64,000 nucleotides of DNA, taken from positions 62,001-126,000 of the forward strand of contig NEEC01000012.1 in NCBI GenBank assembly GCA_002189035.1, in the 5' to 3' direction. Made by a program: the position numbers and the translations under genes. This DNA comes from Utricularia gibba (taxonomy: Eukaryota; Streptophyta; Magnoliopsida; Lamiales; Lentibulariaceae). Position 1 is the first letter of the stretch. Every line of letters starts with the position of its first letter. The notes below the pieces were generated by a model. It was not told where the DNA came from, ran no database searches, and worked only from the letters and a program-made list of their open reading frames with translations. Positions 49,426 through 53,896 of the stretch are shown in pieces.

Positions 49426-49501
49426 TTCAAGAAAACAGACAGAAAGGGCCAGGGGAATAAGCCGCATACCTTCTACGCTAACGATATAAGTTCTATGCCA
49501 C

Positions 49502-50022
49502 ATGATCAACCCAAGAGCTAGGTGTTGCATATTTATCAGATATCCCCAAGGCATTAAAGGCTATAAATTATTCGACCTGGATAATCATGAAACGTTCATA
49601 TCCAGAAATGTCATATTCCATGAAACCGTTTTTCCCTACTCACCCAGCTTCTCTTCTCATCTTAATGCAGATTACCCATTCAACAAGGGTGAAGATCCCG
49701 TGCAACAGCATGAAGATGTCAATTTTCTTGAGCCAACAATACCAACTGACACAACAATGATGTTGGGCCCCACATTTACCAGCCCGACAACTCAGCCCGA
49801 CTTGGGGAGAACTCATGATGCTAAAATTACAAACGGAAGCCCAGAATGCAGAAATGATCAACCACCTGACATGGAGACCGCACATGAAGAACCTCCAATG
49901 ATCGAAATCCCAGAGCCAGAAATCTCAGAAAATACAACCGATGACTCTAGATCTCAACGGAACAAGCGACTCACTGCTTATCTCAACGTCTACTCACATA
50001 CCTTAAGAGACCCACGAGCAAA
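49502..50022 (+). pseudogene. copia A integrase C-terminal fragment
   Basis: PRARCCIFIRYPQGIKGYKL and FISRNVIFHETVFPY are the typical end of copia integrase and linker. The reading goes on to RLTAYLNVYSHTLRDPRA and then runs into the LTR of the nested gypsy element. The integrase zinc finger and catalytic core are absent upstream, so the element lost them by deletion. Confidence 0.8.
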
Positions 50023-50576
50023 TGATGAGATCATGGATGCTACAGATTATTTCAATAAAGATAAATGACACAAGATCAATAATCCTCCATTAATTTCAGT
50101 TGAGCCAATCACTAGATCAAGAGCAAGAAAGAATCAATAAGTGCTTAAGAGCTTATGGGCCAATCAACCAAGCTATGAGGTGTTTGGCATGGAATTCAAC
50201 CTTGTTAAAATGGACCAACTTGATTAGAGGAGGCCCATTAGTTTCAAATACATTATTACTACTTTTTTTTTGAGGAGGCTCAATCCTTCATCTATATAAG
50301 AAGGGTCTTACTCTTGTTTTGGATAACTTTGATTGTAATAACTTTTTAGAGCAATTCTACTTCATTGAGTTCTTGTAGAACTTAGACTTATCAAGCATTG
50401 CTTGTGGTGTCTAGTGTGTGGTTTATCACTCCCGATTCCTTCCTTGATTCTATGAGTGTACCATTTTATAGTTTGGGTTGCAAGGATCTTTCAATCCTTG
50501 AAGGCCAACTTCTTTTCCTTGAGAGATTGCTTCTTTTCAACCAAGATCTGGTTTACCAATCACTTGTTGATTGCCA
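50023..50576 (+). repeat. 5' LTR of gypsy B
   Basis: It begins TGATGAGATCATGG and ends GTTGATTGCCA, with a CTATATAAGAAGGG TATA region in the middle, and pairs with the copy at 53340-53896. The first bases fuse to copia A coding sequence. Confidence 0.88.
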
Positions 50577-51171
50577 GGTGGTGTTAGAGCCAATCTTTCT
50601 ATTATTCATATCCTATCTAGCCTATTGGATGTAAGTGGGTTTATAAGGTTCCAAGATATGAAACTTCTAGATTCAGCTCCATCGCTTACCCCACTACCAC
50701 GCAACTTCAAGTTTGCTCCACTTGGAGAGGGAGATATATTGGAAGAAACTGCATATCGAAAGTGATGTAAATAAGGGAGAGGAATTTGCCAACAATTGGT
50801 GAGTAATATTGTGTTTCACCAGCATGAACCCAAAATTACACAAAAGGGAACAGCAACAAGGCTGTGACGCACAAAGACAGCAAGGGAACTGTCCAAATGT
50901 CACTACAACGGAGGTTATCACAAAAACGCAAGCCTGGGACTCGGCTGCAACAATAACCCCGATAGCTGAAACACCGTACCTGCAACACCAAGTAACTCAA
51001 GTAGGCAATCTAGGCTTCAAACACAGAGTAAGGAAGCATAAGGAAGGAGAACGAATTAGCAACCAGAAAGGTCAAAAATTGCTTCCATTCTTGCTGCTGT
51101 TGTATTTCACATGCTTCATGGGCCCTCGTTGTTTATAGGCCCAAGGAGTGGTTCCTGGACTAACCCACTTG
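50577..51171 (+). other. interior of gypsy B, unassigned
   Basis: A primer-site-like GGTGGTGTTAGAGCC opens the stretch. The remainder has short ORFs without recognisable domains. It may hold leader sequence of gypsy B or the upstream flank of the inserted copia fragment. Confidence 0.4.
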
Positions 51172-51870
51172 CATCAGAAAGCTAGTAGGACGTTTATTCA
51201 ATCTTGGTTTTACTAGGCCTGATTTGGCCTATGTCACTCAACAATTAAGTCAGTTTCTTCAACATCCTACTTCAAACCAATGGAAAATTGCAAAGAGGGT
51301 TGTACGTTATCTTAATGGCACCTTGATGCGAGGTTTGTTCTTTCCCAAGTATGGTGATTTACATTTGGAAGCTTATTGTGATGCAGATTGGGGTGCATGT
51401 AGTACCACTCGACGATCTATATCCGATTATTGTGTATTTTTGGGGCATTCACTTATCTCTTGGTGTGCCAAAAAGCAAAATGTGGTTGCTAAATCCTCTG
51501 CTGAAGCAGAATACAAGAGCATGTCTCTCACTACAAGTGAATTGCGGTGGATTAGTTATTTGCTTCAAGAAATGCATGTGCCCTTAATCACACCAATACC
51601 CTTGTGGTGTGATAACCAAGCAGCTATTCACATTGCTTCTAATCCGGTATTCCATGAGCGAACAAAGCACATTGAGATTGATTGCCACAATGTTCGAGAA
51701 CAACAACGAAAAGGTTTTTTGAGTTGCAGATTTGTTTCCTCTTCTTGTAGCTTGCTTACTTGTTCACAAAAGATTTGAGCACTACACACTTTCTCAATAT
51801 GATTGGCAAGCTGGGATTATGTGATGTCTCCCAATTCCAACTTGAGGGGCGTGTGTTGAATTACAAAGAC
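51172..51870 (+). mobile_element. fragment of a second copia element (C): RT end and RNase H
   Basis: The plus strand encodes IRKLVGRLFNLGFTRPDLAY, LEAYCDADWGACSTTRRSIS, VVAKSSAEAEYKSMS, WCDNQAAIHIASNPVFHERT and, after a frameshift near 51755, MFTKDLSTTHFLNMIGKLGL. This is the end of a copia polyprotein. It differs from the RNase H of copia A at 54590-55000, so it is an independent element. No LTRs of its own were found. Confidence 0.85.
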
Positions 51871-51879
51871 ATGAATGAG

Positions 51880-52092
51880 GATGAACGCGTGTTGAATGAC
51901 TTTAATGGAAAAGGAATATTTTTTAGTATAGCCATCATGGATCACCTTCCTATCATATTGCCACGACCTTCCCAAGAGTATGTGTTCTGCATGCATGGGT
52001 ACTACATCACAAAGAATCTCATCCTGATACTTTCCAATTTGGAAAACAACAAGAACTTGCTTATCGATCTTTACTTCACCCCCTTCATTCAA
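51880..52092 (-). pseudogene. gypsy B protease middle part, inverted
   Basis: On the minus strand, NEGGEVKIDKQVLVVFQIGK, DEILCDVVPMHAEHILLGR and YDRKVIHDGYTKKYSF match the protease-to-RT stretch of plant gypsy elements. It reads opposite to the integrase of the same element. Confidence 0.8.
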
Positions 52093-52104
52093 CCATTGAG
52101 GCTT

Positions 52105-52350
52105 ATAGGGATTCTAGATATGTTGAATCTGAAGTTGAGAGTGAAAGTGGAAGTGAACTATAGCAGATAGATGATAGGGAACAACAACGTGTCATTGGTG
52201 AAAGTTTGGTAATAAGGACTTTAGCCATGGATGCTAAGCCAATGGAGGAGCAACGTGAAAACTTATTCCATACACGTTGCTTTGTGCATGGAAAGGTTTG
52301 CAGCCTAATAATCGATGGAGGCAGTTGCACAAACGTTGCTAGTACTCTTT
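52105..52350 (+). pseudogene. gypsy B protease start, in element orientation
   Basis: The plus strand encodes RVIGESLVIRTLAMD, QRENLFHTRCFVHGKVCS and LIIDGGSCTNVAS, the active-site part of a plant gypsy protease (DGGS in place of DSG, as usual in this group). Upstream is the acidic Ser/Glu-rich end of gag. Confidence 0.8.
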
Positions 52351-52351
52351 C

Positions 52352-52545
52352 GCACAACTCCTTCATTCATGACTTTCTTTTCACTCTCTTTTTTACATGT
52401 TCTTTTCCTTTCTTGTGATATCTCTTTTTTCTCTCCCAAGCTCTCATCTCTCAACTCACCAAAAGATTTGATAGCAGCAGTAATCTTAACTTGATTTTCA
52501 TGTGCCTCTTTTGGAGATAAAGGCACCAACGTGATTGATTTTCTA
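52352..52545 (-). pseudogene. gypsy B linker between protease and RT, inverted
   Basis: On the minus strand, SITLVPLSPKEAHENQVKI is followed by a Lys/Glu/Ser-rich stretch. In relatives this follows directly after the YSF motif now at 51890. Here it lies on the far side of the protease start. Confidence 0.7.
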
Positions 52546-52546
52546 A

Positions 52547-53339
52547 AATGGCACATTTCATCCCTTGTCACAAGACTGATGATGCTTTTTATGTTGCAGA
52601 TTTATTCTTTAGGGAGATTGTTAGGCTTTATGGTATGCCACTTACCATTGTAAGTGATCGTGACACAAAGTTTCTCAACCACTTTTGGCGCACACTTTGG
52701 AGTAAGTTGGGAACAAAGCTTCTTTTTTGTATCACTTGTCATCCCCAAACTGATGGACAAATCGAGGTAACAAGCCGAACCCTAGCTACCCTACTTCGTG
52801 CCATTATAAAAAAAGAACATTAGAACATAGGAAGATTGCTTACGTCATGTTGAGTTTGCATACAATAGAACAGTACATTATTCTACTCATTGTTCTTCTT
52901 TTGAAATTGTGTGTGATTTTAATTCTTGTGCTCCTATAGACTTGTTGCCCCTGCCATCTGATGAATTTCGTAGTTTTGATGGTACTAAGAGAGCAGATGC
53001 CATCTGAAGACTATATGAGAAGGTTCGAAATCAAATGGAAGCTAAAAACAAGGAGTATGTAGCTAAAGCAAATAAACATAGGAAGACAGTTACTCTACAA
53101 CCAGGAGATTGGGTTTGGGTACATTTTCGTAAGGAAAGATTTCCAAGCAAGAGACATTCAAAGCTTTTACCAAGAGGAGATGGACCCTTTCAAGTCATTG
53201 AGAAAATCAATGACAATGCTTATAAGATTGATCTTTTATGTGAGTTTTTGGTCCACTCCACATTCAATATTGTTGACTTAGTTCCTTGTGATGTAGATGA
53301 TGACGATTCAAGGATGAATCTGCTAAAAGAAATGGGGGA
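52547..53339 (+). pseudogene. gypsy B integrase, broken
   Basis: The plus strand encodes [40 protein letters not shown] and [20 protein letters not shown] (integrase core). After stops and a gap at 52823-53030 comes the C-terminal part (KEYVAKANKHRKTVTLQPGD, FPSKRHSKLLPRGDGPFQVI). The frame runs into the 3' LTR and ends at 53544, a common arrangement in this group. Confidence 0.88.
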
Positions 53340-53896
53340 TGATGAGATCATGGATGCTACATATTATCCCAATAAAGATAAAGGACACAAGATCAATAAT
53401 CCTCCATTGATTTCAGTTGAGCTAATCACTAGATCAAGAGCAAGAAAGAATCAAGAAGTGCTTAAGAGTTTATGGGTCAATCAACCAAGCTATGAGGTGT
53501 TTGGCTTGAAATTTAACCTTCTTAAAGTGGACCAACTTGTTTAGAGGAGGCCCATTAGTTTCAAATACATTATTACTACTTTTCTTTTGAGGAGGTCCAA
53601 TCCTTCATCTATATAAGAAGGGCCTTATTCTTGTTTTGGACAACTTTGATTATAATTATTTTTTAGAGCAATTCTATTTCCTTGAGTTCTTGTAGAACTT
53701 AGACTTATCAAGCCTTGCTTGTGGTGTCTAGTGTGTGGTTTATCACTCTCAATTGCTTCCTTGATTATGTGAGTGTGGTACCATTTCATAGTTTGGGTTG
53801 CAAGGATCTTTAAATCCTTGAGGGCCAACTTCTTTTCCTTGAGGGATTGCTTCTTTTCAACCAAGATCTGGTTTATCAATCACTTGTTGATTGTCA
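53340..53896 (+). repeat. 3' LTR of gypsy B
   Basis: It matches the 50023-50576 copy throughout, beginning TGATGAGATCATGG and ending GTTGATTGTCA. The polypurine tract GAAATGGGGGA lies immediately upstream. The last codons of the integrase ORF are inside it. Confidence 0.88.

Follow-up and report, generated by a model that had tools for sequence, protein, structure and literature searches.

How did the protease region of a degenerate gypsy element, gypsy B, come to lie in several pieces whose order and strands differ from those in its relatives? The element lies in a window of 64,000 nucleotides with plant-like content (positions 62001-126000 of contig C244), which we compared with the whole assembly of 100.09 Mb in 516 contigs. 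The window is the whole stretch of DNA analyzed here, and coordinates refer to it unless another locus is named.

The gypsy B element and its host site

Gypsy B is bounded by two plus-strand LTRs with TG...CA ends, the 5' LTR at 50023-50576 and the matching 3' LTR at 53340-53896. They are 93% identical to each other and at most 90% identical to any other LTR scored (40 of 139 candidates). Their K2P distance of 0.0725 +/- 0.011 would correspond to a few million years at commonly used plant rates; for the dating of the nested elements, this value does not differ clearly from the approximately 5% found for the short LTRs of the outer copia element. Close to the 3' end of each gypsy B LTR (50570-50578 and 53890-53896), about 10 bp that are present in the inspected relatives (GAGGGTCGTA) are missing. 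The 5' LTR is followed, on its 3' side, by a tRNA-Met-type primer-binding site (TGGTGTTAGAGCC, at 50579) and the start of the gypsy leader, together spanning 50579-50619 on the plus strand and alignable to the copies on C414, C2 and C244. A polypurine tract, AAATGGGGGA, lies directly ahead of the 3' LTR at 53340. A remnant of the integrase core and its SH3 tail, interrupted by stops, occupies 52539-53334 on the plus strand, direct and collinear with the relatives. The single-direction order gag-PR-RT-RH-IN is broken in gypsy B: the protease is shuffled, and the gag and RT/RH regions are absent. Because the protease blocks and the integrase are collinear in the relatives, gypsy B was classified as a damaged descendant and not as an intact member of the family.

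The host site of gypsy B is an internally deleted outer copia element. The LTR ends are exact at the 50022 and 53897 boundaries, and no 5-bp target-site duplication was found at the flanks (GCAAA versus GTGTG), whereas the gypsy relatives on C414 and C2 do carry such duplications (CCATC and AAATA, respectively). The duplication could also have been lost later. Compared with a relative on C451 (L063:993-1411), about 419 bp of the outer copia are missing at the insertion point. Given this loss and the missing duplication, we considered an origin of the LTRs by recombination of two gypsy insertions, which is less likely because both LTRs are closest to each other. Farther upstream in the outer copia (49430-49540), the gag zinc knuckle appears to be joined straight to the end of the integrase, which would make this a further large internal deletion.

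Order and strands of the protease blocks

Comparison of the segment 51860-52600 with the whole assembly, together with alignments to the parent sequences, resolved 51900-52543 into three blocks of about 200 bp from the protease region that are neighbours in intact copies of the same genome. Block B, the middle of the protease region, lies at 51900-52113 on the minus strand; block A, the start of the region (IIDGGSCTNVAS), at 52107-52348 on the plus strand; and block C, the SITLVPLSP segment past the protease, at 52348/52353-52543 on the minus strand. The plus-strand order in the window is B inverted, A direct, C inverted and then integrase direct; comparison with intact copies bears out the reading of the first-pass annotation. 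Each block matches many loci, with top identities of 91-92% and E values of 1e-73 to 1e-94 in the assembly search. At these values the minus-strand matches of B and C are not due to chance, a possibility which the annotation had raised and which is ruled out. Pfam searches with the B and C pieces taken singly gave no match, probably because both are short.

In intact copies such as L003 and L009, A, about 40 bp, B and C follow each other on a single strand in one open frame (...IIDGGSCTNVAS-TLMVDKLHLPTLKH-PNPYRLQWLNEG...YSFSMKGK-PITLVSLSPKEAHE...). Two or more blocks occur at 30 other loci, and every one of these is collinear, with its blocks on a single strand (A-B-C in 22, A-B in 4, A-C in 3 and B-C in 1); the window copy is the sole exception. 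The other caveat of the annotation, that the scrambled order might be a normal arrangement among relatives, is ruled out by this count. The B-C spacing is 0 bp in half of the 22 A-B-C loci; the rest mostly carry insertions or are diverged. Two further features of the relatives were observed. The gypsy copies on C406, C407, C408 and C409 have in common an insertion of about 350-390 bp in block B, at matching positions, which suggests a segmental duplication or redundant contigs. Near 1992-2007 of L009 there is a short perfect hairpin (CCTTTT-ATGG-AAAAGG) with the B|C breakpoint at its base, which could be a fragile point or a chance occurrence.

Relative to the intact arrangement, the approximately 690-bp A-x-B-C segment was split at A5', within x, at B|C and at C3'. 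Every block is present once in the window, with no overlap beyond the common junction bases, and only about 40 bp are missing between A and B. On the outside, the shuffled block is bounded by B3' and C5', which in intact copies flank a single point. Compared with the relatives, about 1.85 kb to the left of A (most of the leader/gag) and about 1.97 kb to the right of C (RT/RNase H to early integrase) are missing. When three blocks were placed at random in simulations, exact non-overlapping abutment arose in 0.3-0.4% of the draws; full tight tiling was rarer, at 0.1% when placement was confined to 1 kb and 0.008% when it ranged over the whole lost span. Tiling without overlap is the expected product of breakage and re-ligation, whereas template-switch copying would usually produce overlaps or leave gaps.

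The conversion of A B C into -B A -C takes at least three inversions (reversal distance 3), so that one inversion alone is ruled out, as the annotation had maintained. Its suggestion of repeated inversion fared less well. At least three successive small chromosomal inversions with deletions would reproduce the order at the minimum of three reversals and would yield the non-overlapping tiling automatically, but these would be independent events within about 700 bp that reuse one breakpoint, the gain of copia DNA and two deletions of about 1.9 kb would be needed besides, and none of the 30 other copies represents an intermediate. We regard such a series as improbable, a single multi-fragment end-joining event being simpler.

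Blocks A, B and C diverge by 7-13% from each full-length relative compared (best identity, 93%). No block was therefore recently copied from a surviving locus, and a recent capture of any of the three from such a copy is ruled out. The same values bear on an assembly artefact in which unrelated repeat reads were joined. The scramble occurs once and lies within a repeat, as such an artefact would, but the blocks match nowhere else in the assembly above 93%, so that misjoined reads would have no source, and the stretch contains no N or gap; an artefact is hardly credible here.

Junctions and the foreign copia fragment

The junction bases were read from alignments of the window with both parents at every join. 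The leader|copia junction (J0, 50619/50620) has 1 bp of microhomology, and the copia|B-inverted junction (J1, 51898-51900) has none, with perhaps one base added. B-inverted and A share 7 bp, AGGGATT (J2, 52107-52113), and A and C-inverted share 1 bp (J3, near 52348). The junction of C-inverted with the integrase (J4) has up to 8 bp, one of them mismatched, and lies at about 52536-52543, which corrects the edge given in the first-pass annotation. Such a mixture of microhomology lengths (1, 0, 7, 1 and, imperfectly, up to 8 bp) is as in NHEJ/alt-EJ. In pattern searches of the assembly that tolerated up to 3 mismatches, each of the five junctions matched only at the window locus, although copies in assembly gaps would escape such searches. 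The scrambled form is thus private and shows no sign of transposition; a family of transposed scrambled copies, which had been envisaged earlier, is ruled out within the assembly.

Between J0 and J1 lies the foreign copia fragment (50620-51898, plus strand), which matches C317:1655201-1656030 and C142:332846-334262 and belongs to a family different from that of the outer copia. It extends from the RT to the RNase H, the polypurine tract and the first approximately 50 bp of its 3' LTR, with about 607 bp missing at 50650. The fragment also harbors a solo LTR (50763-51176, 414 bp, TGATG...GCATCA), which comes from a third retroelement family and is flanked by GAAAG duplications. The first-pass annotation had the end of the copia fragment coincide with the start of the shuffle at about 51870; the coincidence holds, but the edge is at 51898/51900. 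Because the copia fragment is joined directly to the broken end of block B, its arrival in the same event as the shuffle, which the annotation had proposed, would fit the data, short of proof.

Probable break repair, its alternatives and known systems

The tiling, the mixed microhomologies of 0-8 bp, the flank losses of about 1.9 kb and the copia-B join favour breakage and end joining. We put at roughly 55% the probability that an episode of clustered double-strand breaks, repaired by end joining with copia DNA as filler, made the scramble. The breaks would have hit the locus itself, or else the DNA of the element at the time of its insertion or shortly beforehand. In their repair by microhomology-mediated and non-homologous end joining, local fragments would have been re-ligated without regard to order or orientation, copia DNA being taken up as filler in the process, and the outcome would be a dead gypsy element without spread. 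Gypsy B shows the private junctions, short or absent microhomology, flanking deletions and fragments in both orientations that are expected of an end-joining/filler-DNA scar, and the scramble has the look of a scar left by a single episode of DNA-break repair. We give little weight to a reading in which end joining, and not integrase, captured a linear gypsy cDNA at a break, along with copia DNA and further gypsy cDNA in shattered pieces; if true, one repair event would explain the missing duplication, the target loss of about 420 bp, the chimera and the shuffle.

The first-pass annotation had also pointed to template switching during reverse transcription. Strand switching in a virus-like particle with co-packaged copia RNA/cDNA, followed by integration of the chimera, is possible in principle: template switching is documented in plant LTR elements (PMC1950507), and the outer LTRs of gypsy B are mutually closest, so that both come from one cycle. 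It is disfavoured by the non-overlapping tiling, which it leaves without explanation, and by the exact B-C abutment. Moreover, there are no sibling copies in the assembly and no target-site duplication, the LTR K2P is 0.0725, and the two strand changes would need a cDNA template. Switching between packaged plus-strand RNAs would not in itself turn pieces around. Altogether, we consider this origin quite unlikely. The complex Triticeae LTR elements that arose by reverse-transcription switching were recognised via target-site duplications and shared LTRs (PMC1950507). Gypsy B resembles them in being composite, with outer LTRs closest to each other; the Triticeae insertions, however, remain in direct orientation and possess a third LTR as well as target-site duplications, and gypsy B shows none of these features.

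Within its own genome, gypsy B has LTRs and a tRNA-Met-type primer site in common with a Ty3/gypsy family (IIDGGSC protease, SH3_Tf2-1 integrase tail), and its protease and integrase blocks are 86-92% identical to many genomic Ty3/gypsy copies. In contrast to that family, it lacks most of the leader/gag, the RT/RNase H and a target-site duplication, its protease is shuffled and foreign copia DNA lies inside. The scramble is an ordinary kind of transposable element decay and an unusually clear example of it. Under the end-joining origin that we favour, gypsy B would be a clear natural record of how a small plant genome rejoins several short fragments after a break, for which 30 other copies supply the unshuffled order, although a single private scar says little on the frequency of such scrambles.

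Templated insertions in yeast consist of inverted neighbouring pieces of one locus with little overlap and microhomologies of 2-11 bp (PMC11724301), and by analogy copying with strand switching can mimic a scramble such as that in gypsy B. In such synthesis-based repair, a polymerase (e.g., pol theta), its switches guided by microhomology, would have used the two strands of a gypsy template, broken or single-stranded, to copy B, A and C, and the resulting DNA would have been captured at the break. The 7-bp AGGGATT at B|A and the up to 8 bp at C|integrase agree with this origin, as do the similar two-piece inverted insertions of about 150 bp with little overlap at yeast breaks (PMC11724301). 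Against it, the blocks are single-copy and tile the intact region without overlap, the B-C abutment is exact, and no close donor survives; we regard it as rather unlikely. Like the yeast break insertions (PMC11724301), gypsy B contains pieces that are neighbours at one locus but point in opposite directions, on a scale of about 150 bp, with several bp of microhomology at the inner joins and 0-4 bp at the outer joins. The yeast pieces, however, are copies from distant loci, two per insertion (PMC11724301), whereas gypsy B combines three pieces, each present once and in exact tiling, with copia DNA. The inverted yeast neighbours with about 6 bp of microhomology resemble J2, so that, by this analogy, a mixed mechanism is possible.
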